From NCBI GenBank assembly GCA_030682135.1, contig JAUXQT010000030.1, positions 1 through 64,000 of the forward strand: 64,000 nucleotides of DNA, read 5' to 3'. Numbering within the stretch: position 1 is the first letter of the stretch; each line of letters starts with the position of its first letter. The notes beneath the pieces were generated by a model. It did not search any database and was not told the DNA's origin. It saw only the letters and a list, made by a program, of their open reading frames with translations. A program made the translations under genes and the position numbers. The stretch is from Nitrospirota bacterium. Lineage in GTDB: Bacteria > Nitrospirota > Nitrospiria > Nitrospirales > Nitrospiraceae. Shown in pieces: positions 23,606-57,546 of the stretch.

Positions 23606-23721
23606 TCAAAATGCCCTTCCAGCAAGGCCGCAGCCGAGTCAAAACCGGAGGCGTACCCTCAGGGGTACGTCGCAGGGAGACATGCGACTGAGAACGAAGT
23701 TGGGGACCGTTTTCAGCATCC
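23606..23721. repeat. Palindromic stop-codon-flanking element, family A, copy 1
   Basis: On the minus strand the element starts immediately after the TAA of the alcohol dehydrogenase (GGATGCTGAAAACGG) and ends in a matching arm with an internal small hairpin, GGCGTACCCTCAGGGGTACG. Six further copies are in the window. Confidence 0.88.
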
Positions 23722-24750
23722 TTACACCGTCAACAAAATCTTCCCGAAGAACTTGCGGCTGAGCATCTGCTCCTGAGCCGCCCGCGCCTCTTTGAGTGGA
23801 TAGGTGCGGTCGATCACGGAGATCACACGTTTTTGCCCCATCAGCTCAGCCGCCTTCACCAGTTCAGCCCGCGTGCCCATGTAGGAGCCCTTGATGGTGT
23901 ACTGTCGGGAATAGATGTACCGGAGATCTAATTTCACCTCCGCGCCAGTCGTCGCGCCGCAGGTAATCAAACGCCCGCCCTTCGCGAGGGACTGCAGACA
24001 GGTGTCCCATACCTCCGGACCGATATGCTCAAAGACCACATCGACGCCATGGCCTTCGGTCAGCAGCTTCACACGGTCTGCGACATTCTCCTTCGCATGG
24101 TTGATCACGGCATCGGCCCCCAGAATGACCGCCTTGGGAATCTTGTCATCCGATCCGACCGTCGTGATCACACGCGCGCCGGCGAGCTTCGCCATTTGAA
24201 TGGCCATGGTCCCCACCCCGCTCCCTCCCCCCATGATCAAGACCGTCTCACCATGTTGAAGGCCCGCCTGAGCAAACAACATGTGCGACGCGGTCACAGA
24301 GACGAGCGGAAAGGCCGCCGCCTGCTCGAACGAGAGGTTCTCCGGAATCGGCATCACATTGCGGAACGGCACCTTCACATACTCGGCATAGCCCCCATGC
24401 ATCATCGCCCCGAGCAGGCTGTAGGACTTGCAGAAGTTATCGCGCCCTGCCAGACATTGTTCGCATTTCCAGCAACTGATTCCCGGAGAAACAAACACCC
24501 GTTGCCCGACCGTCACGTGATCGGCTTGCGCCCCCACTTGTTCCACAATCCCAGCCACATCCGACCCTGACACATGCGGCATCGGCATGGGATAAGCCGG
24601 ATTCCCCTGGCGAATCCAAATATCCAGATGGTTCAAGGCACAGACTTTCACCCGGACCAGCACCTCATCAGGGCCGATCGTCGGCATCGGCAGATCTTCA
24701 TACGAGAGTTTGTCCGGTCCACCATGCGCCCGAAACAATACGGCTTTCAT
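23722..24750 (-). CDS. Zinc-type alcohol dehydrogenase / quinone reductase (MDR superfamily)
   Basis: This 342-residue medium-chain dehydrogenase uses NAD(P)H. The catalytic-domain motif is CALNHLDIWIRQG near residue 32 and PHVSGSDVAGIVEQVG near 60. A structural-zinc lobe is present with four Cys in CWKCEQCLAGRDNFC near 97-111. The nucleotide site is VLIMGGGSGVGTMAIQMAKLAGARVITTVGS near 168. The substrate is not predictable. Its stop codon directly abuts a family A palindrome, and a large inverted repeat lies upstream. Confidence 0.9.
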   Translation of the reverse strand: MKAVLFRAHGGPDKLSYEDLPMPTIGPDEVLVRVKVCALNHLDIWIRQGNPAYPMPMPHVSGSDVAGIVEQVGAQADHVTVGQRVFVSPGISCWKCEQCLAGRDNFCKSYSLLGAMMHGGYAEYVKVPFRNVMPIPENLSFEQAAAFPLVSVTASHMLFAQAGLQHGETVLIMGGGSGVGTMAIQMAKLAGARVITTVGSDDKIPKAVILGADAVINHAKENVADRVKLLTEGHGVDVVFEHIGPEVWDTCLQSLAKGGRLITCGATTGAEVKLDLRYIYSRQYTIKGSYMGTRAELVKAAELMGQKRVISVIDRTYPLKEARAAQEQMLSRKFFGKILLTV

Positions 24751-24862
24751 AATCAGCTCCTTGCTAGACCACAGCGTCCATCATAGAACCAGATCGGAGG
24801 AAACAGGCAGAAGCTTGAGGGAGAGGAAGTGGAGCCACTATCCACACAATCCAACAAACAAG

Positions 24863-24981
24863 GTTTTGAAACGGCGGGTGGCAGCGAGGTGGGAGCCCAA
24901 CCGCCCGCAGCGGGGGCCCTACACCGGGCGGGGTGCGAGGACGGTTGGGCTCCTCGCTGACAGGACCCGCCGTTTCAAAAC
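24863..24981. repeat. Long imperfect inverted repeat (single copy)
   Basis: Arms GTTTTGAAACGGCGGGT and ACCCGCCGTTTCAAAAC are exact complements 85 bases apart. Inside them GCAGCGAGG...GGAGCCCAACCG pairs with CGGTTGGGCTCCTCGCTG. The repeat contains the last two codons of PhzF and its stop. The transcript could form a very long hairpin at the PhzF 3' end. Confidence 0.88.
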
Positions 24982-25904
24982 TTCAACACCCCTTCGACGA
25001 CCATGACACATTGCCCGCCCACCTTGACAGTTTGGATGACCTCGTGTTCTGACTCGACCTGCACGAAGATTTGCGAGGGGCGTTCGATTTCATAGCCCTG
25101 TTCCACCACAATTTCAGTCGTCGGAGTCACCTCCACCACCCGATTCTGCACCAGGTAGGCACCCAAGGCGCCACTTGCGCTGCCGGTCGCAGGATCTTCC
25201 AGAATGCCGATCGACGGAGCAAACATCCGCGCATGGACCGTCGCAGTGGGTTCCACGGTCACGGTCGTAAAAACCATGATGCCATTGGCGCCGAAGCGCC
25301 GGCAGACATCCGTAATGGCCGAGGCATCGGGACGGATCGACCGCACCGCCGTCAGCGTGCGGACCGGGACAATCATCACGGGCAACCCAGTGGACACCAC
25401 CTCGATCGGCCACTTCATATCGGCAATCACATGTTTGGCCAGGCCCAGAGCACTGGCAACCTTATAGAGATCCTCCGCCTCCTCCACGGGGCCCAGAAAC
25501 TCCGGCTTCGGCTGCGTCATCACGACCCGCTCCACCAGACCATCTTCCGCATGGAGTTCGACGGAAAAAAGGCCGATATTGCATTCCTGCATCACCCGCG
25601 TCATCGACTCTTTGACTGGGACGATGCCCAATTCTGCCAGGATGAAGAAGGTCCCCAGCACCGGATGACCGGCGAAGGGAATCTCCTGGGTGGGTGTAAA
25701 GATGCGGAGCTTGACCACAGCCGCCTGGTCCGTCGGTGGAAAGACGAAGACCGTTTCGGAGAGATTCATCTCGCGGGCGATCTGCTGCAACTCGTCGTCT
25801 GTCAGGCCCCCGGCATCGGGAAATACGGCGACGGGATTACCACCGAACGGCTCCCCCGAAAACACGTCTGCTTGATAAAATTTGAGTGCCCGTCGGTCTG
25901 GCAT
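24975..25904 (-). CDS. PhzF-family isomerase/epimerase
   Basis: PhzF proteins are diaminopimelate-epimerase-like isomerases; most are of unknown substrate. The 309-residue protein begins with [25 protein letters not shown] and contains [12 protein letters not shown], where the Glu aligns with the catalytic Glu45 of Phz[12 protein letters not shown] near residue 76 and [16 protein letters not shown] near 236 are hallmark anion-binding loops. Phenazine synthesis genes are absent, so this is a stand-alone homologue. The stop codon lies inside the long inverted repeat. Confidence 0.9.
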
Positions 25905-25966
25905 AAGGACCTCCTATCAAGGGACTTCTATAGTCTCCATGTACGGCACACCGGAATAGGCTTCGC

Positions 25967-26090
25967 AGGATGCTCAAAAAAGCCGTTCAGCAAGGCCGCA
26001 GCCGACGAAGGCACCGGAAGCGTAGCCTTGGGCTACGTTGAGGATGCATTCGCGGCGAGAACGAAGCTGGCGGCCTTTTTCAGCATCCTG
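25967..26090. repeat. Palindromic stop-codon-flanking element, family A, copy 2
   Basis: On the minus strand the radical SAM gene ends TAG and the element follows at once as CAGGATGCTGAAAAAGGCC. The far arm is GGCTTTTTTGAGCATCC. The middle hairpin is GCGTAGCCTTGGGCTACG. Confidence 0.9.
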
Positions 26091-27329
26091 CTAAATGGGA
26101 TGTGGAAGCGCGTCAAACTCCTGCCTCATCGGACTTCGCAGATAGTTCTCCACAAAGTTCTGGAGCGAGCCGTTCCGATAGAGCAGCTCATTGGCATATC
26201 GCGTATCGATCTTGTGCAGGACCTTCACAGTCACCTTAGTCTTCTTCGCGAACTGCTCCAGCGTCACCCCGGTGATGTCGCTATAGGGACCCCGGCCTGA
26301 CTGCATGATGCACTTGGGAATGTGCACGACTTTTTCCTTCGTCAACCGGCGGGCGATGTCGTCGAACGTCAGGAGGACCGTGCAATCAGAATCGCCGCTC
26401 AGCAACGTGTTCGGCACATAGAGGAACTTGGCCCGGTTCTTCCGATACATCGTCAGGACCTTGTGGACGCTCGCTGCTGTGACGACCGTATCCTTCTTTT
26501 CCAGCTCCAATGCATCGAAGGTACTTACGATCCGTTTCCGATTGAGAAAAGCCGTCGCATAAGACTCGGTGTGGATCGTCTGAAGGTTGGGCAGCCCCGC
26601 CTCATAAATCCTGAGCGCTTCCCCCGGCAGATGCTTTCGCCCCTGCCGCATCAGACTGGTCGTGTCCTCTTTCAAGCCGCGCACCGGTGTCAGCGTCCCC
26701 ATCCAGAGCACACAGTTCTGGTTGATCGACGAGATCAGCGCCGCATCCTTCGACATCGTATGTTCATCGAAGGCGTAAAAATTCGCCGAGGAGACCGCCG
26801 GGCCGTCCAAGACTTTCAACACATGTTTCACCGAGGGCGCATGAGGCATGAGCTTCTGCCGATAGTCGCTCAGGGTGATGACCGACAGTTCGAAGTTGAT
26901 CCGCCCGGGGAATTGCGACACGAGTTGGTGGATCTTCGGGACATGCACGTATCCAACAGTAAAGAACTGGATACTCTTGTCCGTGTAGGTGAGAAAGTCC
27001 TCGACCCATTCCATTGCCTTCGGATGGAGAAACAGATCGGTCCATTCCATGTACTCGTTGCCGCCCAGACACCAGAACTGTTTCGGGTCCGTCGGCTTCT
27101 TGCTGATGTAGTCGAGGATATATTTCCAATCTTCGTCGCTGGTCTTCGGCGGGTCGAGCGTTTCGCGGTAGGAATGGTCCAGCTCGTAGCAGAACTCGCA
27201 CTTCACCGGGCAATCGCGCCCCAGGCTGAGCGGAATCTTGCCCGCGTCCATTTCCTTGCGCAGGACCTCACGATAGTCTTTGTTCGTAAAGATGGGAGCG
27301 GCTTGAAGGATCGGTAGAACAGTTCCCAT
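26091..27329 (-). CDS. Radical SAM protein of unknown function
   Basis: The 412-residue enzyme has a canonical radical SAM cluster motif, Cys40-x3-Cys44-x2-Cys47 in GRDCPVKCEFCYE. The rest shows a partial TIM-barrel pattern, with QFWCLGGNEYMEW near residue 83 taking the place of the GGEP SAM-contact loop. It has no B12-binding domain and no extra Cys-rich SPASM region. The C-terminal part (VHKVLTMYRKNRAKFLYVPNTLL...) is specific and unknown to me. A short divergent gene lies 87 bases upstream, followed by two B12-type radical SAM genes. A pathway linking the three is possible but unproven. Confidence 0.82.
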   Translation of the reverse strand: MGTVLPILQAAPIFTNKDYREVLRKEMDAGKIPLSLGRDCPVKCEFCYELDHSYRETLDPPKTSDEDWKYILDYISKKPTDPKQFWCLGGNEYMEWTDLFLHPKAMEWVEDFLTYTDKSIQFFTVGYVHVPKIHQLVSQFPGRINFELSVITLSDYRQKLMPHAPSVKHVLKVLDGPAVSSANFYAFDEHTMSKDAALISSINQNCVLWMGTLTPVRGLKEDTTSLMRQGRKHLPGEALRIYEAGLPNLQTIHTESYATAFLNRKRIVSTFDALELEKKDTVVTAASVHKVLTMYRKNRAKFLYVPNTLLSGDSDCTVLLTFDDIARRLTKEKVVHIPKCIMQSGRGPYSDITGVTLEQFAKKTKVTVKVLHKIDTRYANELLYRNGSLQNFVENYLRSPMRQEFDALPHPI

Positions 27330-27416
27330 AACGTCAGATCAGCAGGCTCGTGGGATGAACAAAAAAACCGCCGGCATGGTTTGACAGGCCTGGTCCAGCT
27401 TTGTCACAGTACACAT

Positions 27417-27680
27417 ATGAGTGATGACGCCATCCCTAAAGAAATCACCCACGCCCTGGAGGTTCTGGAACTCACGCTTCCCATCACCTCCGAAGACCTG
27501 GAGCGGGCCAAGCGCGTGCAGCTCTACAACTGGAACCCCGCCCGCTATTCGAACCTGACCAACAATCCCAAGCAATACATGCAGGCCTACAAGAAGGCCG
27601 AAGAGATGACCAAGGTCGTCGAAGCGGCCTATGCCCTTCTCATCGCCGTCCTCGTCCCGGATGATGAAAACGCCACCTAA
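27417..27680 (+). CDS. Small J-domain-like protein lacking HPD
   Basis: The 87-residue product is MSDDAIPKEITHALEVLELT followed by LPITSEDLERAKRVQLYNWNPARYSN, a linker and EMTKVVEAAYALLIAVL. The spacing (helix, basic helix, loop, final helix with AAYALL) resembles a J domain, but the HPD that triggers Hsp70 is replaced by NPA. That likeness is my inference. The start is the ATG at 27417; a longer frame from 27381 overlaps the radical SAM promoter region. It is convergent with the B12-radical SAM gene, the two stops being 101 bases apart. Confidence 0.6.
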   Translation: MSDDAIPKEITHALEVLELTLPITSEDLERAKRVQLYNWNPARYSNLTNNPKQYMQAYKKAEEMTKVVEAAYALLIAVLVPDDENAT

Positions 27681-27781
27681 CTGCGTTCTCAGTCGTACGT
27701 CTCCCTGCGACGTACCCCAGAGGGTACGCCTCAGTCACCGTACTCCCTGCGGCCTTGTTATCTGGCGTTTTGATCATCCTG
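27681..27781. repeat. Palindromic stop-codon-flanking element, family A, copy 3
   Basis: The element exactly fills the gap between two stop codons: the TAA at 27678-27680 on the plus strand and the TAG at 27784-27782 on the minus strand. From the minus side it starts CAGGATGATCAAAACGCC and has the core GGCGTACCCTCTGGGGTACG. The distal arm is degenerate. Confidence 0.82.
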
Positions 27782-29734
27782 CTATCCCGCATCGTGGCTC
27801 GTGACTCTGGCCATGCCTTCATGCCCCTCTGACTGGGCCACAGGCCAGGTGACTAATCCCGAGACGCCTTCGGGCGAGCCAACTGCCACCTGCTGCTGCG
27901 CGTAGATCTGCGGCAACTGGTTCGTTCCGTACTTCGAGATATAGAGGAAGACGTGCTCGCGTGAATTCACCCGAACCGCCCAAGGCTGAAAATCGTTCTT
28001 GTAGAACTCTTCGCAGAGCTGCATCGCGTCCAGGCAGGAGAGCGTGCTCGGATCGTTCAACGTGTAGTAATAGTCCAGCGGCAGATCGTAGTCCTCTTGC
28101 TTGTGGATCGTAATGCCGAACTTCTCCGGATTACGCACCATCGGCGTATGGCGATAGGCCACGAAGTAGAACAGCTCCACCGAATGGATCACCGGCTGGT
28201 TGTCGATGACGAACTGGCGGGTCTCCAGCGCTTCGTCGCGCGTCTCGCCGGGGAAGCCGTAAAAGGCCATCACGTGGTTCCAGATCCCCGCCTTCGCCGC
28301 CTGATGGAGATTGTTCTGGATCACGCTCTTCTTGGCATGTTTGTCCATGAGGTTTAGCACCCGCTCGTTCGCCGACTCCATCCCGTAATAGAGGGTGCAA
28401 CAGCCGGCCTTCGCGGCGAGATCCCAAATCTCCTGGTCTTGCAAGGTCTCTTCGAACCGGATCAGCGTGGTCCACTTGATCCCGACGTTCTGCTCGACCA
28501 AGAGCTGCGACACCTTCTTGAACAGGGCCGGGGGATAGGATTCATCGCTAAACAAGAAGTGTCGGCAATGGTATTTGTCCCGCAACGTCTTGATCTGTTC
28601 GACCACTTGCTGCGCCGGCACACCGCGATACTGGTCGAAGTAGCCCTGCCCATGGTCGCAGAAGGTGCAGCGGCCCCAATAACAACCGCGCGTCGCGAGG
28701 TAGGGAATGATCAACTCCGGCACGAAATACTTCTCCAGCGGCAGCCCCTCGAAGTCCGGCAGGGGCAGCGAGGTCGTCTTCTCCGTATAGACCTCGGGAC
28801 TCCGGTGGACGCCTGACTCATCGCGGTACATCAAGTTGGGCACGGAACTGATCGGCCGCTCTCCGTTCAAGGCCTCGACGAGCCAGAGGAGCGCATGTTC
28901 CCCTTCATAGAGGATGGCCGAGTCGAAGATCTCTTTGAAGAATCGTTCCTGGTTCGGCAGCTCTTCCTGCAACCGCGTGACGACATTGCCTCCCACCACC
29001 ACATGGATATGGGGGAAGGTCTCCTTGATCATCTTGCAGAATGTCAGGCCAGCCAGGAGCTGCATCTGCGTCCCGATCGAGACCCCGACCACGTCCGGCT
29101 TCTCTTTCGCCACCGCCGGCATGACCAACTGGTTGCAGATGTCGCGATAGACGTTCACCTGTTCATCGTCCAGACAGGCGAAGACTTCTTTCGAGACCCC
29201 GGGCCGATAACCCAGGTTGCTTTCCATCGGATAGAACACGATCGAGGCTGGATAGTAAGCGGCGGAAATGTAGTGCATCACCTCGCGGAAACAGTTCAGC
29301 GCCCCTTCCAGCTTCTCGGCCTGATAGAACCGCTCGCCCCGCACGATCAGCTTGGCATCCTCGGCCCGCTCCGCCAGATCGAACACGTCCACCGCATAGG
29401 CCTGCTCTACCACAGCCTTCTGATCAGCCTCACGCTCCGTGAGCGTACCGGCCTTCTCTTTGTCTTGCAGGGGCTTCAGCTGCATCCCCAACCGGGCCTT
29501 CACCCAGATCAGGAACTCCATGGTGAAGAAGTGGTCGTACATCTCGATGTTGATGTCGCGCTGCACGACTGTGTGTCCTGCTTCGCGGAGGATAGCCGTC
29601 AACGAGGGCAAGGCCAGATAGGGAGCCGTCGGCACCCATTCCGGGGGGAACAGCAGCATGACCTTCGACTGTTTCCGATCCTCTTTCTTGATCGGAGCCA
29701 AGCCTTGGATTTGTACGAGACCTGAGCTACTCAT
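27782..29734 (-). CDS. B12-binding-type radical SAM protein with CX4CX2C motif, copy 2
   Basis: The 650-residue enzyme has an N-terminal cobalamin-binding-type region (about 24-260; VMLLFPPEWVPTAPYLALPS, then PDVVGVSIGTQMQLL and VVVGGN), followed by a radical SAM barrel. The cluster motif is GCYWGRCTFCDHG, with Cys351-x4-Cys356-x2-Cys359 instead of the usual x3 spacing. A helical insert of about 130 residues lies within the N-terminal region. No DxHxxG base-off motif is seen. It is a clear paralogue of the gene 41 bases upstream, with which it forms an operon. The reaction is unknown; B12 enzymes of this kind often methylate or rearrange unactivated carbon. Confidence 0.85.
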   Translation of the reverse strand: MSSSGLVQIQGLAPIKKEDRKQSKVMLLFPPEWVPTAPYLALPSLTAILREAGHTVVQRDINIEMYDHFFTMEFLIWVKARLGMQLKPLQDKEKAGTLTEREADQKAVVEQAYAVDVFDLAERAEDAKLIVRGERFYQAEKLEGALNCFREVMHYISAAYYPASIVFYPMESNLGYRPGVSKEVFACLDDEQVNVYRDICNQLVMPAVAKEKPDVVGVSIGTQMQLLAGLTFCKMIKETFPHIHVVVGGNVVTRLQEELPNQERFFKEIFDSAILYEGEHALLWLVEALNGERPISSVPNLMYRDESGVHRSPEVYTEKTTSLPLPDFEGLPLEKYFVPELIIPYLATRGCYWGRCTFCDHGQGYFDQYRGVPAQQVVEQIKTLRDKYHCRHFLFSDESYPPALFKKVSQLLVEQNVGIKWTTLIRFEETLQDQEIWDLAAKAGCCTLYYGMESANERVLNLMDKHAKKSVIQNNLHQAAKAGIWNHVMAFYGFPGETRDEALETRQFVIDNQPVIHSVELFYFVAYRHTPMVRNPEKFGITIHKQEDYDLPLDYYYTLNDPSTLSCLDAMQLCEEFYKNDFQPWAVRVNSREHVFLYISKYGTNQLPQIYAQQQVAVGSPEGVSGLVTWPVAQSEGHEGMARVTSHDAG

Positions 29735-29775
29735 GTATTCTTTCTTGTTCCCTACACATCACCCGTCACGTCTCG

Positions 29776-31674
29776 TTACATTTTTCCAGCCAGCGTGCGC
29801 GTCACACCGGCGGTCTTCACAGACTGATATTGCAGATCCCGCAACTTCTCCAACCCGAACTTCGCGATGTAGAGAAAGATATATTCCCTGATGTAGAGCC
29901 GCAGATCCCAGCCTGCGTAATGGTTCTGTTCGAACTGTTGGAACACCCGCTCCGCCTCTTCGATGCTCATCCCGTTCTTCACCGTGTAGTAGTAGTCGAG
30001 CGCCAGATCCCATTCGGGGTTCTTGTAGGCCGTCACGCCCCACTTATCCGGATGCTTCGCCACGGGGTTATGCCGGCCCAAGTCGAAGGTGCCGAAGCCC
30101 AACGAATGGACATGGTCCTTGTTCGCTTCGAGAAACTCCACCGAGGACCAGGCCTCTTCCTTCGTCTCGCCGGGAAAGCCGAAGAAGCCCATGCAATGGT
30201 TCCAGATGCCCGCGTTGGCCGTGAGCTGCAAGTGCTTCGTCATGATCTCCGTCGTCGTCGCCTTGTCCATCAGCTTCAGCACCCGCTCGTTCCCCGACTC
30301 GTAGCCGAAGTGGAGGTACTTGCAGCCGGAGTCCTTTGCATCCTGCCAGACCTGATCTTCCAGCAGACTCTTCTCGAACCGCATGTGCGTCGTCCAGACG
30401 ATATCCATCTTGGTGTCGATCAGCCCGCGCGCCAGCTTGCGGAACAAGGCCGGCGGGTACGACTCGTCGGTGAAATGGAAATGCTTCGCCCCGTACTTGT
30501 CGCGCAGATGCCGGATCTCGGCCAGAATGTCTTGAATCTTCTTCGTCCGATAGCCAGCCGTATAGCCCTCGCCATGGTCGCAGAACTCGCAGCGGCCCCA
30601 GTAGCAGCCGCGCGTCGCCAGATAGGGCAGAATCTTCGTCGGCACAAAATATTTGTCCAGCAACAGACCGTCGAAGTCCGGCGGCGGCAGCGCATGCATG
30701 TCTTCCGCAAAACTCGTCTCCGACGTATGGACCCCGGTCTCGTCCTTGTAGATCGTGTTCGGCACGTCGGCCAGGCTCCGCTTCGCACCCACTGCCGACA
30801 CCAACTGCACAAAAGCCGTCTCCCCTTCATAGACCACGGCACTGTCGAAGTATTGGAACAGGGGCGACTGGGGCAGCACATCGCGCAGGCGCGTCACCGT
30901 ATTGCCGCCGATCGTCACATGGATATGGGGGAAGTGCTGTTTGATCAGGGCACAGAAGGTCATGGCAGAGAACATCTGCTGCTGCAGGACAATCGAGATG
31001 CCGATCACGTCCGGCTGTTCTTTCTCGATCGCCGGCTTCACCAAATGCTCGAACACATCACGATAGATATTCACCTGGGTATCGTTCACCGCATCCATGA
31101 CTTCGGATGAGACGAAGACCTTATAGGACAGATCCGTCTCCATCGGCGGCATGCAGATACGCGCCGGGGCATAGACCATCGAAATGACCGATGTCACTTC
31201 GCGGAACACTTGAATGGCCCACTCCAACTGGTCGATTTCGTAGAACACTTCCCCGCGGATAATCGCCTTCGCCTTCTCCGCCTTCTTGATCAATTCGTCG
31301 ATCCGCTGCCTGGTCACATCGCAGAGCGCCAGCTGCAAATCCATCTCATTGGCGTCCAGGTCCCGCTTCTTGGAGAGCTTGCGGAGCCGATCGAGCTGCT
31401 GCGGCACCCGGCGCAGGACTTTCTTCAAAAAGTCCTCGCTGAAGTACCAGTCCCACATTTCGAGGTTGATGTCTTTTTGGATGACCGTATGACCGGCCTG
31501 ACGGAGGACGGCGGTGAGGGAGGGAAGGGAGAGGTAAGGCTCGCTGGGGAACCAATCTGGAGGGAAGATCAGCATGACCTTCATCTTCCGGCCGCTGGTG
31601 GCTTCGAAACTCTGACGATTCAGGAGAATCAGTTCTTTGGAAGCTCGCTCGCCCTTGGAATACTCAATCTTCAT
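29776..31674 (-). CDS. B12-binding-type radical SAM protein with CX4CX2C motif, copy 1
   Basis: The paralogue of the following gene, 632 residues. The shared plan includes VMLIFPPDWFPSEPYLSLPS (about 33-52), DVIGISIVLQQQMFSAMTFC, TIGGNTVTRL, then the cluster motif GCYWGRCEFCDHG with Cys357-x4-Cys362-x2-Cys365. The C-terminal half of both ends with a Trp/Tyr-rich helical region before IFLYIAKFGLEKL. The ATG at 31674 (MKIEYSKGERAS) is chosen because the same N-terminal codons recur in a deleted copy at 32583. The stop is 41 bases from copy 2. Substrate unknown. Confidence 0.85.
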   Translation of the reverse strand: MKIEYSKGERASKELILLNRQSFEATSGRKMKVMLIFPPDWFPSEPYLSLPSLTAVLRQAGHTVIQKDINLEMWDWYFSEDFLKKVLRRVPQQLDRLRKLSKKRDLDANEMDLQLALCDVTRQRIDELIKKAEKAKAIIRGEVFYEIDQLEWAIQVFREVTSVISMVYAPARICMPPMETDLSYKVFVSSEVMDAVNDTQVNIYRDVFEHLVKPAIEKEQPDVIGISIVLQQQMFSAMTFCALIKQHFPHIHVTIGGNTVTRLRDVLPQSPLFQYFDSAVVYEGETAFVQLVSAVGAKRSLADVPNTIYKDETGVHTSETSFAEDMHALPPPDFDGLLLDKYFVPTKILPYLATRGCYWGRCEFCDHGEGYTAGYRTKKIQDILAEIRHLRDKYGAKHFHFTDESYPPALFRKLARGLIDTKMDIVWTTHMRFEKSLLEDQVWQDAKDSGCKYLHFGYESGNERVLKLMDKATTTEIMTKHLQLTANAGIWNHCMGFFGFPGETKEEAWSSVEFLEANKDHVHSLGFGTFDLGRHNPVAKHPDKWGVTAYKNPEWDLALDYYYTVKNGMSIEEAERVFQQFEQNHYAGWDLRLYIREYIFLYIAKFGLEKLRDLQYQSVKTAGVTRTLAGKM

Positions 31675-31900
31675 AGAACTCTGGTCTTTCTTTCGCCCGG
31701 CTGCGAAACGACCCGAATCATTCAAAAAGCCAAGGAGTTTCGGGGGTATTGTAAGGGGGCCAAAGAAGGATATGCAAGAGAGGGAGGGCGCGGCCAGGTG
31801 CCCTCTTTGCTCGCGCAACGCGCGGCCTCAGAAGGCCCTCGTTGGACGCGCGCAGTCGAGGACCATCTGACTCCCACTTTCCAATACAAAGGGAGCGAGA
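31675..31900. repeat. Upstream region of the B12-radical SAM operon, duplicated at 32584-32890
   Basis: Collinear blocks are shared with the second copy: CTTTCGCCCGGCTGCGAAA, CGACCCGAAT, TCAAAAAGCCAA, AGAAGGATATGCAAGAG and GAGGACCATCTG. The block probably holds the operon promoter on the minus strand. I found no gene in it. Confidence 0.75.
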
Positions 31901-31951
31901 ACGGAGAAAGAAAGGAACTACGGCCTGTCACCCCTCAAAGACAAACTAGGA

Positions 31952-32131
31952 TTAGGGATTGCCCAACATCTTGAGGATACGCTTTGCGAGGTGTTCGTTG
32001 ACCTCGGCGTGGCGAGGAATGGGCTGGGAAACCTTGGTGGTGAGATTGTGATACCAGTCGTGCTTTCCGCCATGACGGACGAGCACACAACCGTTGGATT
32101 CAAGCTGTCGAATGAGATCTTTGCGCTTCAC
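31952..32131 (-). CDS. hicA: HicA-type mRNA interferase toxin
   Basis: A 59-residue product from a GTG start at 32131: VKRKDLIRQLESNGCVLVRH, GGKHDWYHN and VSQPIPRHAEVNEHLAKRIL. This is the HicA double-stranded-RNA-binding fold, with the active His in HGGKHDWY. The GTG overlaps the HicB stop (GTGA), so the order is antitoxin then toxin with coupled translation. Its small size and GTG start make it easy to miss. The final ILKMLGNP is also family-typical. Confidence 0.88.
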   Translation of the reverse strand: MKRKDLIRQLESNGCVLVRHGGKHDWYHNLTTKVSQPIPRHAEVNEHLAKRILKMLGNP

Positions 32132-32328
32132 CGAAGTGTCAGCTCAGCAAGCTTGCGCACTCCAGGGATTTCGCCGCTGGTGAGGTCGCGGTGCAGATCG
32201 CGAAGATGGGATTGTAGGTCTTCGAACGACTCCCCTTGCGTCCAATAGTCAGGATAATCTTGGAGATAGCCGAGCCACTGCCCCTGATCCTGCCAATAAA
32301 TATACTTGGTCGATTCCATAACGGACAT
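32128..32328 (-). CDS. hicB: HicB-type antitoxin
   Basis: The 66-residue protein YIYWQDQGQWLGYLQDYPDY...TQGESFEDLQSHLRDLHRDL has the degraded-RNase-H fold of HicB antitoxins. It lacks the C-terminal DNA-binding domain found in longer members. It is paired with the HicA-like toxin downstream with a four-base overlap. Two close in-frame ATGs (32328 and 32319) could serve as start. Confidence 0.85.
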   Translation of the reverse strand: MSVMESTKYIYWQDQGQWLGYLQDYPDYWTQGESFEDLQSHLRDLHRDLTSGEIPGVRKLAELTLR

Positions 32329-32422
32329 TATAGCCGGACTCTAAAGGTCTGGGAAGTGGGGCGCGAAATCGAACAGCTCAAAACGGCAAATCTGCGTCAG
32401 AAGAGCAACCAACGAAACCCCA

Positions 32423-32547
32423 GGATGCTCAAAACGGCATCTCGCTAGGCCGCAGGCAAGTCAAAACCGGAGGCGTACCCTCAGGGGTACGTTGAGGATT
32501 TTGGCGAGCCAAGAACGACGCGAGAGGTCGTTTTGAGCATCCTGGTT
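32423..32547. repeat. Palindromic stop-codon-flanking element, family A, copy 4
   Basis: Arms GGATGCTCAAAACGG and GTTTTGAGCATCC flank the core GGCGTACCCTCAGGGGTACG. Its minus-strand start joins directly to the truncated radical SAM coding remnant at 32548-32583, as if the rest of that gene had been deleted. Confidence 0.88.
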
Positions 32548-32583
32548 GGAGGCCCGTTCGCCCTTCGGTGACTCAATGCGCAT
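32548..32583 (-). pseudogene. Start of a deleted third B12-radical SAM paralogue
   Basis: On the minus strand an ATG at 32583 gives MRIESPKGERASN, closely matching MKIEYSKGERASK of the gene at 31674. After codon 12-13 the coding region stops and the family A repeat begins. The upstream sequence is also a copy of the functional gene's upstream sequence. I read this as a gene lost by deletion of all but its first codons. Confidence 0.72.
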
Positions 32584-32890
32584 AGGGATTTGGTCCTTCT
32601 ATCGCCCGGCCTGCGAAAGCGACCCGAATGAAGCTACCCGCCAAGAGCTACTGGGTATCAGCGAAACTCTCCGAAGCCTCGGCGAAGGAGAAACAGTCAA
32701 AAAGCCAACGGGTTAGGCTAGAGAAGTGTCATTGTACGGAGGGGGGGAAGAAGGATATTCAAGAGCGGGAGGGGGCAGCCAGACGGTCCTCCGTGCTCGC
32801 TGAGGCCCCACGATAACACCGTGGTCCCTCAATGCGCGCAGTTGAGGACCATCTGCCCACCCCCTTCAATGTGAGGTGGGAAGAGAAAGG
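32584..32890. repeat. Duplicate of the B12-radical SAM upstream region
   Basis: This is the second copy of the 31675-31900 block, with about 60 extra bases. Shared blocks include CTTCTATCGCCCGGCCTGCG, AGCGACCCGAAT, TCAAAAAGCCAA, AGAAGGATATTCAAGAG and GAGGACCATCTG in the same order. It is degenerate and holds no gene of its own. Confidence 0.75.
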
Positions 32891-32909
32891 AAGCGGCCAG
32901 GCCGCCCCA

Positions 32910-33221
32910 TCACAGATCTGGAGAACCACCACGCTTCGTATGCCAGAGGGCAAGGATTTCGACGGTCTTGGATTCTGAGGTTACGCGATAATAGAGATGG
33001 TAATGGACGCGGGGAAGGTGAATGCGGCGAACACCGACAAGCGTGACGTTCCGGGCCTGTGCACCGATCGATGGCTGTGAGGCGAGAAGTTGGAGTGCGC
33101 GCTCGAGCTCGACGGCAAATGCATCCGGAGCCTTCGTGCGATTGGCCACCCACCATTCAGCAGCTTCGACAATGGCCCGTGCCGCGCTGCTGACGATGCG
33201 GACGGAAAATGGACCGCTCAC
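32910..33221 (-). CDS. ParE/RelE-superfamily toxin
   Basis: The 103-residue product has the ParE-type pattern: VRIVSSAARAIVEAAEWWVANR, then AVELERALQLLASQPSIGAQ, GVRRIHLPRVHYHLYYRV and VEILALWHTKRG at the end. The arrangement (two helices, then a four-stranded sheet ending in a His-containing strand) is typical of ParE toxins, which poison gyrase, though it could be a RelE mRNase. It follows its antitoxin with a four-base overlap. No DNA signature of transfer was seen, although it lies within the plastic region. Confidence 0.85.
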   Translation of the reverse strand: MSGPFSVRIVSSAARAIVEAAEWWVANRTKAPDAFAVELERALQLLASQPSIGAQARNVTLVGVRRIHLPRVHYHLYYRVTSESKTVEILALWHTKRGGSPDL

Positions 33222-45845: not shown

Positions 45846-46241
45846 ATGCCGCATGTCTTGATCATTCATGAAGTCGAAGCCTATCCGGCATGGAAAGCCG
45901 TATTCGACCAAGCAGCAGGCATCAGAAAACGCGCGGGGGAGATCAGCTACCAATTACTTCGATACGACAACGAGGCCAACCGCATCGTCCACTTCTCTGC
46001 CTGGTCCTCGCTGGACAATGCCCGTCGTTTTTTCGAGTCCCCGGAGCTCATTGAGATCAGAAGACAGGCCGGTGTGAAAGCGCCAGAATTTATCTACCTG
46101 CACGAGATTGAACGCGGCCTGCTCCAGCAGGATGCTGAAAAAGTCCGCCCGCGGCATTCTCGCTTCATGAAGAGGCTCAACGTACCAACCAGTACGCCTC
46201 GCCTCTTCGCTCGCTGCGGCCTTGCTGAACGGCCTTTTTGA
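45846..46241 (+). CDS. Antibiotic-biosynthesis-monooxygenase-like (ABM) protein with repeat-derived C-terminus
   Basis: The first 94 residues match the ABM/ferredoxin-like dimer fold: HVLIIHEVEAYPAWKAVFDQ, LLRYDNEANRIVHFSAWSSL and FFESPELIEIRRQAGVKAPE. From about residue 96 (QDAEKVRPRHSRF...) the frame runs into a family A palindrome and is read to a stop at 46241. In other copies TAG stands directly before the CAGGATG start of the element. Here the codon is CAG, suggesting a lost stop codon. The natural protein would then be about 95 residues. Function unknown. Confidence 0.75.
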   Translation: MPHVLIIHEVEAYPAWKAVFDQAAGIRKRAGEISYQLLRYDNEANRIVHFSAWSSLDNARRFFESPELIEIRRQAGVKAPEFIYLHEIERGLLQQDAEKVRPRHSRFMKRLNVPTSTPRLFARCGLAERPF

Positions 46242-46252
46242 GCATCCTGTGG
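46129..46252. repeat. Palindromic stop-codon-flanking element, family A, copy 5
   Basis: Plus-strand orientation. The near arm is CAGGATGCTGAAAAAGTCCG and the far arm GGCCTTTTTGAGCATCCTG. It overlaps the last 37 codons of the ABM-like gene, which read into it. Confidence 0.9.
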
Positions 46253-46469
46253 TTGTTCAGGCCGTGGTGCCGCTCGGAGTATTGTGGCTATTCTTTTCGC
46301 ATTTACCGAGTTTTTCCGCAGCCTGCTAGTCTTGAGATGGCATACCCACCTCCCACCTTGACTCAGACTTGCTAGCCGAATATTTTCACGCTGACAGTTC
46401 GTACAGAAGCGAGACCGTACGGCCTCTCGAACAGAGACAATCTTTACAATTACCAAGGAGGTGCGCGTG

Positions 46470-50167: not shown

Positions 50168-50361
50168 GACCGCACCTTGCAGGCACGTATTGTATCTAGG
50201 CGGACAATCTCTTCGTTCATGTTGCGTCTATGGAGGAAACCCCGGGACCACCGGCAGGTAGGTCGTTGTTCTGGCATGTGGCCTGGTGGCCAGAATGATC
50301 AGTCAATCACATCTGAGGAGTGGCACGCGCAAACTCTCTTCCACACGCTGCCGACGAGGCC

Positions 50362-50607: not shown

Positions 50608-50840
50608 GAGAGCCTCCTCCCATGCGGATGTGATGGAACGGTCAGGCTGTGATGGTACGCCTCCCCGAAACTGTGGTCAATCGATGCGTCGGCCAACGTG
50701 ATGGTCTCGCGAAGGGCATCTGACGCACGAGCCGCTCCCCGGAACCATAATCGCCTCGTGCTCTTACCTTCTGCCTCACTCAAGAACAGGGCGGAGCAAA
50801 CCGATATCTTCTAATAGAGACACCTACCAATGGAGCAACC

Positions 50841-51482: not shown

Positions 51483-51916
51483 GGAACCTCCCCCTACTCT
51501 GAAGGCCCACCCCGGGCCAATCGTGAAGCCTACCCCTTGGTTCGTCGTTCGTCTCTCGTCCGAAGAAAAGAGCATATGGCGCATGGCTTATAGCTGAAAG
51601 CATCCCCATAGGGTACCAACCGGATTGTCTTTGCCCGTGCTATACGCCATGCGCATTCGCTCCGTCCTCCCACGATAGACCCTTCACGCTTTACGAACGA
51701 CGCGTCCCTCTCTTGCCATACGCTATAGGCCATCAGCTCCTTGCGCCCCAGCCCATCAGCCATCAGCTCTTCTCTTCCTTCTGGCCAGGAGGGCTGGACC
51801 AGACCGCCTCTGAACCAGTAGAATGCACGATCCGCTTTTCCTTCCCCCCTGGCCTCATAGGCTCGTTGGAAACGGTACGACTCGAACAGCATCGCCCTTA
51901 ACGTGAAGGAATTATC
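51483..51916. repeat. Intergenic repeat cluster, family C
   Basis: These 434 bases hold several units in both orientations: GCGCATGGCTTATAGCTGAA near 51580, ACGCTATAGGCCATCAGCTC near 51722 and AGCCCATCAGCCATCAGCTC near 51750. Also AGCATATGGCGCATGGC. No gene was found. The frame of about 120 codons on the minus strand here is built from the repeats. The last bases GTGAAGGAATT form the ychF ribosome-binding site. Confidence 0.7.
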
Positions 51917-53008: not shown

Positions 53009-53017
53009 CCTTCGCTC

Positions 53018-53251
53018 ATGAGCCAGCCACCCCCCATCTCTCACCCCCGCGATCCCTTGCATGGGATCACGCTCGAAACCATCATCAAGGAACTGGTCGA
53101 GAAGTATGGCTGGGAGGAGATGGGGAAACGCGTTCCGATCCGCTGCTTTCTCCACGATCCTAGCGTGAAGTCCAGCCTCACCTTTCTCCGAAAAACGCCT
53201 TGGGCACGAGAGCGGGTTGAAGGCTGGTATATCGCATATAAAGATATGTGA
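53018..53251 (+). CDS. VF530-family (DUF2132) DNA-binding-like protein
   Basis: The 77-residue protein [20 protein letters not shown] then [20 protein letters not shown] and [20 protein letters not shown] matches VF530/DUF2132, a small helical family structurally similar to DNA-binding SRCAP-like folds. Function unknown. It follows ychF with a 9-base gap, so it is probably in the same transcript. Confidence 0.88.
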
Positions 53252-53310
53252 GCGACGGTTGCCGACTCCCTCGACTTACATCATTCAACACACAGAGGAT
53301 CCACCATTCC

Positions 53311-53871
53311 ATGGCCTCGAACGCGACCATCTACAAGGCAACGTTGCAGATCTCCGACATGGACCGCCAGTACTATGGGGACCATTCGCTGACCCTGGCG
53401 CGCCATCCATCCGAAACCGACGAGCGCATGATGGTGCGGCTGCTGGCCTTTGCCCTCCATGGACATGACGCCTTGTCGTTCGGCCGGGGGGTGAGCACCG
53501 AAGAGGAGCCGGCACTCTGGCTCAAGGATCTGACCGGCGCCATCGACCTCTGGATCGAAGTGGGGCAACCCGATGAGAAATCCATACGCCAGGCTTGCGG
53601 CCGCGCACAACAGGTCTACCTCTATACCTATGGCGGTCGTGGCGCCGATCAATGGTGGGAGAAAAATCTGGCCACACTTGCACGGTTGACGAATTTAACC
53701 GTGATGAATCTTCCGCTCGACGGGAGCCGTGCCTTAGCTCAACTGGCCATGCCCAGCATGCAACTGCAATGCACCATTCAAGAAGGACAGATCTGGATGG
53801 CGAACGGAGAGCATACGGTGCAGCTGGAATTGACCCTGTTGAAACAGCCGGCCACTCCATCTGGACGATAA
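53311..53871 (+). CDS. YaeQ-family protein
   Basis: YaeQ has a fold close to PD-(D/E)xK nucleases; its role is poorly understood. The 186-residue protein starts MASNATIYKATLQISDMDRQ and has ALSFGRGVSTEEEPALWLKD near residue 54 and IDLWIEVGQPDEKSIRQACG near 74, where acidic residues and Lys may form the active site. The ATG at 53311 has AGAGGAT ahead of it. Followed by the SUI1 gene after 13 bases. Confidence 0.88.
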   Translation: MASNATIYKATLQISDMDRQYYGDHSLTLARHPSETDERMMVRLLAFALHGHDALSFGRGVSTEEEPALWLKDLTGAIDLWIEVGQPDEKSIRQACGRAQQVYLYTYGGRGADQWWEKNLATLARLTNLTVMNLPLDGSRALAQLAMPSMQLQCTIQEGQIWMANGEHTVQLELTLLKQPATPSGR

Positions 53872-53884
53872 TGCGGGTGTCGCG

Positions 53885-54280
53885 ATGAAGGACAAGAAAC
53901 GCGTCGCTACCAGTGGTGAACCAATCCTCTGGAAGAGTCCATTTGCAACCCTGACGAGCATGGACCTCCCTTTGGCTCCAGCAGGCAAGACCCCTGTCGC
54001 AACAGGCGACGTCGCGCCTCCCTCACAGAAAAAAAGCCGTGGGCGGGTGGATATCATTCGCCAAACCGCGCACCGGGGCGGGAAGACTGTGACGGTCGTC
54101 ACGGGTTTCACCGGCATCAGTCTAGCCGAGAAAGAGACCCTTGCGAAAGACATGCAGAAAGCCTGTGGCGCCGGAGGCACAGTGAAGGAGGGCCGGATCG
54201 AAATGCAGGGGGATCAACGAGACACCGTCTTCCGCATCTTGACCAATGCCGGATTTCGACCGGTGTTTGCGGGAGGATGA
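53885..54280 (+). CDS. SUI1/YciH-family translation initiation factor-like protein
   Basis: Bacterial YciH is a homologue of eIF1 that can edit initiation complexes. The 131-residue protein has a basic linker (PPSQKKSRGRVDIIRQTAH) and the SUI1 domain KTVTVVTGFTGISLAEKETL then KACGAGGTVKEGRIEMQGD and the terminal ILTNAGFRPVFAGG. The GxGGTVK-type loop is typical. The first 45 residues are variable. The gene starts 13 bases after yaeQ. Confidence 0.9.
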   Translation: MKDKKRVATSGEPILWKSPFATLTSMDLPLAPAGKTPVATGDVAPPSQKKSRGRVDIIRQTAHRGGKTVTVVTGFTGISLAEKETLAKDMQKACGAGGTVKEGRIEMQGDQRDTVFRILTNAGFRPVFAGG

Positions 54281-54541
54281 CAGCTGTGGCGCGATACAGG
54301 CGGGACGAGCGGGAGGGGCGAGACGAGAGAAGATTCGAGGGCAGATTCTTGCAGCTTCGAACATCATACCTTGGCTCAGGCCTAACACGATTCTCTACCT
54401 ATCTCGCGTGTCTCGATTTTCCCGCGCTTCACGCGCGCCCACGCTTTCCTCGATTGACTTCCTCCCCCGTCCACGGTACAGGATGCACCATTATTCTGAC
54501 AGCGCGTACTCACGCCTCATCCATCACTGAAAGGCCACCGC

Positions 54542-54718
54542 ATGAAAAACGTCGAGATGACCATTGCAGGGACCATATTGACCATCAAAGTCGACCTATC
54601 CAAAGAGTTCGGGCCCTCGGCTTCGGGGAAAACAATTATCATCGCCTCAACAGAGGGGAATGTGACCATTCCTGAACGAGAAGAAAAAGTCGGACTGAAC
54701 GTCTACCGGAAAAAATAA
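54542..54718 (+). CDS. Small protein of unknown function (58 aa)
   Basis: MKNVEMTIAGTILTIKVDLS is followed by KTIIIASTEGNVTIPEREEK and ends NVYRKK. It is beta-rich with alternating hydrophobic residues, in the style of a small barrel or edge-strand protein. A weak GAAAGG is 8 bases ahead. I do not know the family. The coding looks genuine: codon use is regular and the length is short. Confidence 0.62.
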   Translation: MKNVEMTIAGTILTIKVDLSKEFGPSASGKTIIIASTEGNVTIPEREEKVGLNVYRKK

Positions 54719-55091
54719 TCGAGGCATCGACTCGCACAGACCTCTCAGGACATGAGGCCCAATAGTCCCCCCTCTATACCCACTCACCGGGCACGACTGT
54801 CTCCTCCGTTCAGACGTCGAAAGTCTTCGACATCATCTTCATGACAGCTGAAGCCTCACCTGGTGCGGACTTGAAAACAGGATTCTGCACTGAAGGAATG
54901 ATGACCAGCGCGAGATGATCGGTACGGCAAGCCGATGGGGTGAGCGAACAGGATCACGGCAATACAGGCGAGTACAGGCTGGAAACAATGGCCCCAGCGC
55001 GCAACCATCGACGTGCGCGGCATGCGGCTAACGCACGCCGATGGACGCAGCGGGTGTGGCTTCGGCCAGAACGGCCGAAACACAGACGGTC
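54719..55091. other. Intergenic stretch, no gene seen
   Basis: 373 bases without a recognisable gene. The minus-strand frame in it (Pro/Ser-rich) has no family resemblance. Its right end meets the stop of the small Lys-rich gene. Confidence 0.5.
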
Positions 55092-55187
55092 TTACTTCTT
55101 CTTGGCAACCTTGGCGGCGCGCTTTTCCTTCACCGTCGTGGCAGGTTTCTTCTTGGTATTTTTCTTCTGTGTCATGCCCTTAGCCAT
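55092..55187 (-). CDS. 31-residue Lys-rich basic peptide
   Basis: MAKGMTQKKNTKKKPATTVK and then EKRAAKVAKKK, over one-third Lys. An ATG at 55187 has AGAGGAGAGACTCC ahead of it, a strong ribosome-binding site, which supports real translation. The composition resembles short histone-H1-like or AlgP-like tails, and could bind nucleic acid. It has no hydrophobic segment. Function unknown. Confidence 0.65.
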   Translation of the reverse strand: MAKGMTQKKNTKKKPATTVKEKRAAKVAKKK

Positions 55188-55389
55188 GGAGTCTCTCCTC
55201 TGATATGTGGATGAGTCATGTGGGACCACGATGCAGTCGCCACCCCCTCTTCATACCCCAATTACAAAAAAATTGGAATAGGGCCGGCAACCTGCTCTCG
55301 CCGGTTGACTTCGCTTCCTGCCCCCTGTACAGCTTGCATCATTCGAAGAATCTGTCCATCCGACAGCAGGATGCATCAGGAGGAGCGTG

Positions 55390-55644
55390 ATGGGAAATCC
55401 AGAGGGCAATAAAGAGCGTGAGGCGTTTGCCGATGCAATCAACCGTGCCGCATTCAGCAGCGAACGTGTGCTGTTGCGCCGACGTGGCCGAGCGGTCGCC
55501 GCGGTCGTGCCCATCGAGGACCTGCGACTCCTGGAGGCGCTCGAAAACCGTATCGATCTTGTCGATGCCCGAGCCGCGTTAGCCCAGGCCAACAAGAAAG
55601 GCGCTCAGTCGCTCGACGTGATCCTGAAAGAATTGGGGCTCTGA
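55390..55644 (+). CDS. Phd/YefM-type antitoxin
   Basis: The 84-residue protein has FADAINRAAFSSERVLLRRR then GRAVAAVVPIEDLRLLEALE, the N-terminal DNA-binding and dimerisation pattern of Phd/YefM (the VLLxRxGxxVAxxVPxxD core). The tail NKKGAQSLDVILKELGL would cover the toxin. AGGAGGAGC precedes the ATG at 55390 (a GTG at 55387 is less likely). The toxin follows after 9 bases. Confidence 0.88.
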   Translation: MGNPEGNKEREAFADAINRAAFSSERVLLRRRGRAVAAVVPIEDLRLLEALENRIDLVDARAALAQANKKGAQSLDVILKELGL

Positions 55645-55653
55645 TACGACCAA

Positions 55654-55914
55654 ATGATCTCCGCCATTCTCCTCGCCCCACCAGCCGAACAACAACTCAG
55701 AGCCGTTGAGAAACCGCTTCGGAAGGCCCTCGTGAAATGGCTCAATGCCATGAAGAACCATCCGCGCCCCCCAGGCGTCACCACGCTTGAAGGCGAAGAC
55801 CATCTCTATCGAGTCCGCGATGGCGACTACCGGATTATCTACGCAATCCGCGATAACAATCTCGTCGTGCTCGCCATCAAGCATAGCGTTCGGACACCGG
55901 TCTCTCGATCCTGA
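55654..55914 (+). CDS. RelE/ParE-superfamily toxin
   Basis: The 86-residue protein reads ILLAPPAEQQLRAVEKPLRK, then GVTTLEGEDHLYRVRDGDYRIIYAIRDNNLVVLAIKH. The YRVRxGxYRIIYxI pattern is the core RelE strand, with the Arg and Tyr that act on mRNA. It follows its Phd/YefM-like antitoxin with a 9-base gap, the usual order. Confidence 0.9.
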   Translation: MISAILLAPPAEQQLRAVEKPLRKALVKWLNAMKNHPRPPGVTTLEGEDHLYRVRDGDYRIIYAIRDNNLVVLAIKHSVRTPVSRS

Positions 55915-56098
55915 AGGACTTCGCTCACCCAACGTTCTCATCAACACCACGCTGGCAGAGTTTCAGCGGAGACCTGCTCCATCGGCCATTGAACAGCAGG
56001 GGTACTCTTCAAGTCATCAATGTGACTACGGAAACAGTGGTGATATGAAAATCCCTTGAAATGCCGGGAAGCTTGGATTGAAACGTGAAGAGAATCAG

Positions 56099-56223
56099 CA
56101 GGATGCTCAAAAAGGCCGTCCAGCAAGGCCGCAGCCGATGAAAGCATCCGAGGCGTAGCCTTTAGGCTACGTTGAGGATGCGTTCGAGGTGAGAACGCCG
56201 CTGGCGGACTTTTTCAGCATCCG
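56099..56223. repeat. Palindromic stop-codon-flanking element, family A, copy 6
   Basis: On the minus strand it begins after the TAG of the methyltransferase as CGGATGCTGAAAAAGTCCGC. The far arm is GGCCTTTTTGAGCATCCTG, and the core GCGTAGCCTTTAGGCTACG. Confidence 0.9.
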
Positions 56224-57408
56224 CTAGTGTTCGCCGCTGGCAATCTCTCGATAGTACAACTCCAGCATGACCCTGCTGGCTGGTTCGACAAGCACCAACT
56301 GGCGTTGATCCAAGGTGTTGGCGCAATAGAGATAGATCCCCTCCGATGCCTGCCCAAGCTCGACATGCAGTTGACGTCCATCCGGCTCCTGCCTCGTCGT
56401 CTCGTGAAGGACCTTCTTCTCGCGCAATTGTTCCCAGACGATCTGTGCAGAAGACCAATGGTTCTCATAGAGCGGCGCGTCAGGATCGGCTGAGCCTGAT
56501 TCCAGCTTCGTTGGATCGAACGAACAACCTTCGTCTGGCTCTGGCGTTTCATCCCAATGAAGGGGATGCGATATTCCCCTCCCCAACAGATACAGAGGGC
56601 CATCGTCGGCAACTTCTTCGACGAGCCGGTAGCGAATCAATTCCGGCTGCTCGATGAGGTCAAACCCTCGTGCAGCCACAGCCCGTTGCAACGGGACTCG
56701 CCTCGCCAGCTGACGGGTTTTCTCAAATAGGATCATGCGCCCATTGATCGAGAGCTGCATGCTCAGGCAATCAAGCCTCGCACCAATTCCTGTTCGCCCC
56801 TCGAAATCAGCCTGCTGATGCCCCTCGCTGCCACGCTCGAAGGTGGTCCAACTGCGACTGGGAATACCAGGGTCCTGTTCCGTTTGTACCAGGGCATGCG
56901 TGGCAAGGATCAGATCATAGGAGGAATTGGAAGCGGTGTGGTCGAGATCGAGACAGTCGAACAGCACATTGGTCAGGCCCAACGCCTGCGCTCGCTCCCG
57001 CGCACGTTCAATCGAGACCGGTGAGCGATCGATTCCGACGAAGGTCTTGTCGGGATGCTGCTTTGCATAGAACGTCGTGAGGATGCCGACCCCACAGCCC
57101 ACATCCAGGACGGACCGGGCCCCACCGATACGATCCGCGACGCGAAGACCGATGGCGAGATAATAGTCGTACCGCTGACTATACAGAACCGGCAGGATAT
57201 TCGGATGGGCTGTGGCATCGTAGAATGCGATCTCGTCGGCAGCAGATCCGCGACGTTTCTGTTCCACCTGCCGATGTAATGTTGTGAGGTCTTCGGAAGA
57301 GAGCGTCTCCCGCTGCCACTGAAAATAGGCCTCGTCCGAGGTGAACTGCCGGAGACCCCACCAGGCCAGGTGTGAATGGAGCGATGGCAACCGTGAGTCG
57401 TTGGTCAT
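56224..57408 (-). CDS. Class I SAM-dependent methyltransferase (fused with unknown C-terminal half)
   Basis: The protein has 394 residues. The methyltransferase domain is about residues 60-240, with the SAM site SVLDVGCGVGILTTFYAKQH and the acidic FVGIDRSPVSIERARERAQA following. The motif VLFDCLDLDHTASNSSYDLI closes motif II. The C-terminal 150 residues are unusual: acidic, with PDEGCSFDPTKLESGS, then YLYCANTLDQRQLVLVEPAS, which I cannot assign. The ATG at 57408 has GAGG ahead of it. The stop is followed directly by family A copy 6. Confidence 0.82.
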   Translation of the reverse strand: MTNDSRLPSLHSHLAWWGLRQFTSDEAYFQWQRETLSSEDLTTLHRQVEQKRRGSAADEIAFYDATAHPNILPVLYSQRYDYYLAIGLRVADRIGGARSVLDVGCGVGILTTFYAKQHPDKTFVGIDRSPVSIERARERAQALGLTNVLFDCLDLDHTASNSSYDLILATHALVQTEQDPGIPSRSWTTFERGSEGHQQADFEGRTGIGARLDCLSMQLSINGRMILFEKTRQLARRVPLQRAVAARGFDLIEQPELIRYRLVEEVADDGPLYLLGRGISHPLHWDETPEPDEGCSFDPTKLESGSADPDAPLYENHWSSAQIVWEQLREKKVLHETTRQEPDGRQLHVELGQASEGIYLYCANTLDQRQLVLVEPASRVMLELYYREIASGEH

Positions 57409-57423
57409 GAATGCAGCCTCGGC

Positions 57424-57546
57424 GCGCCTGCTCAACAGGTTTTCCAGCGAGGCCGCAGGCGAGTCGAAATCGGAGGCGTACCCTTGGGGTACGTTGAGGA
57501 TTTCGATGAGCCGAGAACGAAGCTGGAGAGCCTGTTCAGCAGGCGC
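57424..57546. repeat. Palindromic stop-codon-flanking element, family A, copy 7
   Basis: This is a variant: after the TAG of the ProA-like gene the element begins GCGCCTGCTGAACAGGCTCT and the far arm is CCTGCTCAACAGGTTTTCC. The core GGCGTACCCTTGGGGTACG and TTGAGGATTTCGATGAGCCG match the other copies. Confidence 0.82.

Follow-up and report, generated by a model that had tools for sequence, protein, structure and literature searches.

Why should palindromes lie flush against the ends of genes in one short piece of a bacterial genome, and how could they have come to be there? The question is raised by 64,000 nt of contig JAUXQT010000030.1 (the window, by which we mean this whole stretch), part of a Nitrospira genome of 3.75 Mb in 113 contigs, in which a sequence-only reading had described seven palindromes as a single family, each starting right after the stop codon of a gene. 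The seven lie where they had been placed and do form one family, scoring 76-129 bits with a covariance model built from 36 copies, and counting with that model, as had been proposed, gives at least 150 copies in the genome. They belong to a new family of miniature inverted-repeat transposable elements (MITEs) of Nitrospira and its relatives, with an IS5-like target, YTAR (C/T-T-A-A/G). The explanation that we prefer, with a probability of roughly 85%, is a non-autonomous MITE moved in trans by a DDE transposase of the IS5/IS1182 kind, with YTAR as its target and a duplication that restores the stop codon, many copies perhaps having been kept as 3′-end structures.

The figures for the genome rest on one row per copy (165 rows), of which the 157 scoring at least 80 bits were used, and 154 or 155 of these entered the flank tests; opposite-strand echoes, two doubly seen copies (L059, L104), partial matches at the ends of stretches and matches below 61 bits were left out. 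The stretches fetched cover ~0.7 of the 3.75 Mb and were selected around copies, and site counts in them are not a random sample; their genes were called by a codon-usage script of our own instead of a standard program.

The unit and its target site

The family is assigned to the MITEs because of its inverted repeats, the direct YTAR repeats around it, an empty site in related genomes, and insertion sequences with the same ends. The palindrome of 125 nt is the 3′ part of a unit of ~200 nt with terminal inverted repeats (CAGGCTGCGGAAAAA.../...TTTTTCAGCATCCTG), which in full consists of one inverted repeat (CAGGCTGCGGAAAAAC), lying within a left arm of ~79 nt, then the structured core of 125 nt, and finally the other inverted repeat, whose inward reading is CAGGATGCTGAAAAA. 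Reading outward from the copies, the left arm is seen to start with TAGCAGGCTGCGGAAAAACTC, ~79 nt beyond the 5′ end of the model, so that the full unit extends further out than the model does. The unit is short, has terminal inverted repeats and carries no long open reading frame (ORF), as is the rule for MITEs. The left arm is recognised by profile in 53 of the 157 copies, and the lengths of repeat pairs, over all the loci then compared, peak at 120-139 nt (28) and at 200-219 nt (36), so that short and full-length forms both exist. A sub-family (e.g., L021:16380 and L111:972) starts with CAGGTTGTTGACAAACTA and in this resembles the ends of L388, a sister insertion sequence.

The core folds into an extended rod with 43 pairs, and for 25 of them one or more of the 36 copies carry a change on both sides. 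Longer variants of it measure 160 nt (L138:2501, L116:2501, L131:12246) or 190-193 nt (L026:3875, L090:1211, L066:1611), and in the orthologues L141 and L218 the palindrome contains additional sequence that includes CACCCGCCCAACCC.

At the 3′ end of the copies YTAR is found in 62 of 157, against 0-2 at eight other offsets. For the duplication, a set of 36 units was used in which the arm aligns from its first or second base: YTAR stands at the left end of 27, at the right end of 19 and at both ends of 17; the two 4-mers, read in direct orientation, agree fully in 12 of these 17 (permutation p = 0.006). If only the pairs with a non-palindromic member are taken (n = 9), five match directly and none inverted. 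A 2-bp duplication of TA, of the IS630/mariner type, was rejected in view of the CTAA/CTAA and TTAG/TTAG pairs, whose members agree in direct orientation.

The search for empty sites in related genomes, also proposed by the sequence-only reading, gave a clean one, shared by five relatives, and another seen in a single relative. In the first, on contig C45 (locus L027), a unit of 197 nt lies between two CTAG, and its joined flanks align without a gap to the five relatives, where a single CTAG forms the stop of the upstream ORF; a similar unit is present at this site in the relative G009 (L312), and in L314, L315 and L319 other sequences, beginning with CTAGCAGG, stand at the same stop. In the second (L020:16614 against L212), TTAG occurs twice in our genome and TCAG once in the relative, a difference of one base in the 4-mer. 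Thus, the mobility of the family is well supported, to the extent that sequence comparison allows. At two further sites the core of the relative is oppositely oriented (L238:1280-1430 for L061:5055, and L195:3220-3393 for the window copy at 27656), which may reflect an inversion or two separate insertions into one site.

These empty sites also bear on the idea that the palindromes are integron attC sites marking former gene cassettes, a likeness for which imperfect palindromes of ~125 nt with unpaired asymmetric parts, right behind stops, would speak. The core motif of attC is R″/R′, RYYYAAC...GTTRRRY, whereas the end logos, taken without a search for an integron integrase, are devoid of any conserved RYYYAAC or GTTRRRY; nor do cassettes insert as seen here, cleanly, with 4 bp duplicated and the end of the gene unchanged. 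In place of the attC likeness, which must be given up as highly improbable, there are a target-site duplication and insertion sequences with matching ends.

Candidate source of the transposase

By a search with the IS1182/IS5-like transposase P0001, two insertion sequences were located in two related genomes, L393 (1319 bp) and L401 (1318 bp), that carry CAGGCTGCGGAAAAAC at both ends and whose first 16 bases are those of the left end of the MITE. Their transposase ORFs are free of stops and encode a DDE transposase, and they are flanked by CTAG/CTAG (L393) and CTAG/TTAG (L401). The L393 protein is matched by PF01609 alone (42.8 bits), and this transposase has matches in 11 of 32 genomes of the genus, many at low identity; the interior of the MITE, compared by eye, is unrelated to L393 and L401. 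From the shared ends, we infer that a transposase of the L393 type would be the mover of the family.

This arrangement has counterparts among known systems. According to PMC5493358, IS5 of E. coli duplicates Py-T-A-Pu, most commonly CTAG (15 of 24 known targets), and the Nitrospira MITE is alike in its 4-bp Py-T-A-Pu duplication, mostly of CTAG, and, as in IS5-derived MITEs, in sharing its inverted repeats with a related insertion sequence that has a DDE transposase. It differs from the IS5 elements in having no ORF and in its conserved rod-like core of 125 nt; furthermore, the sister transposase P0001 matches the models of both families below their cut-offs, at 213.9 bits for IS1182 (cut-off 270) and 119.5 bits for IS5 (cut-off 140). 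RUP of Streptococcus pneumoniae, as treated in PMC2229807, is an intergenic MITE of ~107 nt in ~108 copies, for which IS630-Spn1 is the proposed in-trans mover, via shared inverted repeats. The likeness lies in a small intergenic MITE with an in-trans mover that shares its inverted repeats, and the difference in the target, which in RUP contains TA and in Nitrospira is the YTAR that restores stop codons.

Other candidates for the parent were set aside. Inverted-repeat pairs 0.8-4 kb apart had no common size (their ORFs were not searched against families), and DDE_Tnp_1 loci with YTAR flanks have different inverted repeats. One of the latter, L349 on contig C64 of our own genome, is a stretch of 1186 bp with a DDE_Tnp_1 ORF, the inverted repeats GGAAGGTCTGATTAATTC and CTAA on both sides, and is, judged by these features, another YTAR insertion sequence of this genome. 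The end of the sister element L388, CTAG|CAGGCTGTTGACAAA, appears there at two contig edges.

Several results tell against a MITE moved in this way. In our own genome a search for the parent found none intact, giving a broken remnant without recognisable ends, together with the end of the sister element. The left arm goes unrecognised in 104 of the 157 copies, which would be older or shortened ones; YTAR at both ends is seen in just 17 of the 36 units; and one unit outside that set (row 18, L013:4634) has the inverted arrangement TTAG/CTAA. Lastly, among the ten site comparisons listed, two relatives have TGA where our genome has TAA or TAG, the gene of one relative is longer, and several cases are ambiguous. 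In two further relatives of the same ten, TAA stands where our genome has TAG.

Placement at stop codons and a possible 3′-end role

The exactness of position that had been judged greater than chance, and also greater than that of a normal terminator, extends to the wider genome: at the 3′ end of the model a stop trinucleotide occupies the flush position in 87 of 155 copies, against 0-13 at the other offsets from -6 to 39, and at the 5′ end the counts stay at or below 11 of 154 for every offset. An excess at stop codons is therefore present, its absence being what the sequence-only reading had named as the outcome that would speak against it. Of these 87 flush stops, 45 terminate ORFs that are 80 codons or longer and whose codon use is coding-like. 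Where the flush stop is in frame, it is TAG in 29 cases, TAA in 11 and TGA in two; overall usage in the fetched stretches is nearly equal (TGA 111, TAG 108, TAA 105).

How an element could come to be placed so precisely would be explained as follows: (i) a DDE transposase of the IS5/IS1182 kind would be supplied in trans by insertion sequences of 1.3 kb sharing the inverted repeats; (ii) this enzyme would insert the unit at YTAR, mostly CTAG, duplicating those 4 bp; (iii) where YTAR is composed of the last base of a sense codon and a TAA or TAG stop, the duplication would keep both gene and stop, with the element flush behind; (iv) insertions within reading frames would mostly have been lost through selection; (v) and finally, many old copies would have been retained because a hairpin right behind the stop serves as a 3′-end structure. 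In other words, a TAA or TAG stop preceded by C or T forms a YTAR site; an insertion at it leaves the last codon and the stop intact, and a mobile element can sit exactly at stops without recognising them, because the duplicated target contains the stop. The mobile element with a preference for stop codons that had been suggested is accordingly kept as to its mobility and amended as to its target, which is YTAR, inclusive of those stops. The rule predicts the positions that such elements may occupy.

A resemblance to REP/BIME-like repeats (repetitive extragenic palindromes and bacterial interspersed mosaic elements) has also to be considered, in which a REP-associated tyrosine transposase (RAYT) would be the mover and a terminal TAG box would give the stop. 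REPs are linked to RAYT. The likeness is that the palindromes lie behind genes with TAG at both outer ends, and according to PMC3733652 the terminal TAG of GTAG-type REPs often serves as the stop of flanking ORFs, these REPs lying mainly near 3′ ends, where neighbouring genes are convergent or in tandem, as the Nitrospira elements also do. Against this, the Nitrospira TAG belongs to a duplicated target site, a YTAR repeated directly at the two ends; the ends are mostly CTAG, TTAG or CTAA, with no GTAG box; the unit measures ~125-200 nt, against the 20-40 bp of REPs; and Y1_Tnp, the Y1 transposase domain, has no match in our own genome (0) nor in 13 of the 32 genomes of the genus, including G001 with at least 113 copies. 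It is therefore a very improbable origin.

A closer competitor is the neutral one, the same MITE with YTAR targeting and loss of gene-breaking insertions and no function behind the stops, to which we would give somewhat less than even odds. Outside reading frames or at stops, 126 of 811 YTAR sites are stops (45 of 251 for CTAG alone), a share large enough for targeting, together with the loss of harmful insertions, to account for much of the effect; moreover, 14 of 45 full-length units, counted by eye with one at the threshold, abut an in-frame stop at one of their ends (p = 0.03 against 0.18). However, an in-frame TAR stop lies flush with the 3′ end in 40 of 154 copies, where random orientation at CTAG would give ~9% (p = 6e-10) and the undivided share 18% (p = 0.015), and stop-flush copies thus exceed the prediction of YTAR targeting alone. 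It also speaks against the neutral version that copies are enriched in convergent gene gaps (38 of 151, element-free gaps 26 of 281; p = 2e-5) and depleted in divergent ones (15 of 151, element-free gaps 61 of 281; p = 0.002), and that two loci kept across species, compared in 7 and 4 assemblies, retain the rod, with double changes in 6 of 41 and 7 of 45 pairs. In tandem pairs the 3′ end is directed towards the upstream gene in 64 cases against 34 (p = 0.003).

The stop-flush excess, the placement in gaps and the double changes at two loci fit retention as a 3′-end hairpin, without proving it, and suggest that many copies may have been kept as such, perhaps as terminators or protectors of mRNA ends. 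The stabiliser or terminator envisaged by the earlier reading has to this degree some indirect backing from placement and conservation. On the other side, a terminator scan of 23000-33000 gave 12 sites, against 8.2 (standard deviation 2.7) in shuffles, a single one of them inside a copy, and the T run is paired within the stem and not free; the double changes could also stem from palindrome-correcting mutation, and the placement counts depend on a home-made gene caller and on stretches chosen around copies. The stronger proposal is a domesticated, self-spreading 3′-end module, which would have supplied many Nitrospira genes with a bidirectional terminator or an mRNA-end hairpin, under selection on RNA structure locus by locus; it seems to us rather unlikely. 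The many natural placements allow the effect of a hairpin right behind a stop codon to be tested. Nitrospira are important nitrifiers, and their genomes are dense in repeats.

Spread of the family and the copies of the window

No publication describing these repeats was found in the open-access literature, subscription journals being mostly outside the search, and the accessible parts of PMC12306157, PMC6006769 and PMC3119063 do not treat them. Among 31 genomes searched with the covariance model, all 19 of the genus (our own included) have at least 54 matches each, with counts taken up to 113, and 11 of the 12 from other families of the order have from 1 to 79. In a draw across the phylum, matches occur in 53 of 118 genomes, of which 23 belong to the same taxonomic family, the other 30 having weaker best scores; 65 have none, 20 of these being listed. 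Exact matches to the core, in the best 80 of at least 111, bear Nitrospira, Nitrospirae or Nitrospiraceae in their titles, except for one titled Geobacter.

Within the window, the claim that every palindrome starts right after a gene stop holds for five of the seven, which lie directly against the in-frame stops of long ORFs (342-650 aa), in all five cases on the minus strand. Four of them, on the plus strand, do so by the 3′ end: copy 1 (23598-23724) at the TAA of a zinc-binding dehydrogenase ORF (23722-24750), copy 2 (25966-26091) at the TAG of ORF 26091-27329, for which a Pfam search gave no match, copy 6 (56099-56225) at the TAG of a methyltransferase-like ORF (56224-57435), and copy 7 (57424-57547) at the TAG of an aldehyde-dehydrogenase-like ORF (57547-58947). 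The fifth, copy 3 (27656-27781, minus strand), is reversed, and it is the 5′ end of the model that abuts the TAG of a radical-SAM ORF (27782-29734). The same end had been said to face the gene in all seven; this is true of the outer repeat, near-identical at both ends, and not of the asymmetric core, as copy 3 shows. Copy 4 (32421-32545, plus strand) has no stop codon adjoining either end, and copy 5 (46125-46328, minus strand), a full-length unit with its core at 46127-46249 and the left arm and left inverted repeat extending to 46328, has CAG at the junction instead of TAG, its flanks being CTAG at the left end and CTGG at the right. ORF 45846-46241 (131 aa) passes this CAG, continues into the element and terminates within it, and copy 5 may possibly supply it with a C-terminal extension.

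Five of the window copies were folded, four of which give z-scores of -7.3 to -9.7 against shuffles, while copy 1 (23598-23721) folds no better than its own shuffles (z = -0.56). The arms of copy 7 are altered and still pair (GCGCCTGCTC/CAGCAGGCGC). Rfam, at the gathering threshold across the window, leaves the palindromes unmatched and returns a tRNA as its sole match. Beside these copies, ORFs 27782-29734 and 29776-31818 form an adjacent radical-SAM/B12-binding pair, and the DNA of 31637-31797 recurs at 32546-32782, next to copy 4, perhaps as the remnant of a third radical-SAM/B12-binding copy.

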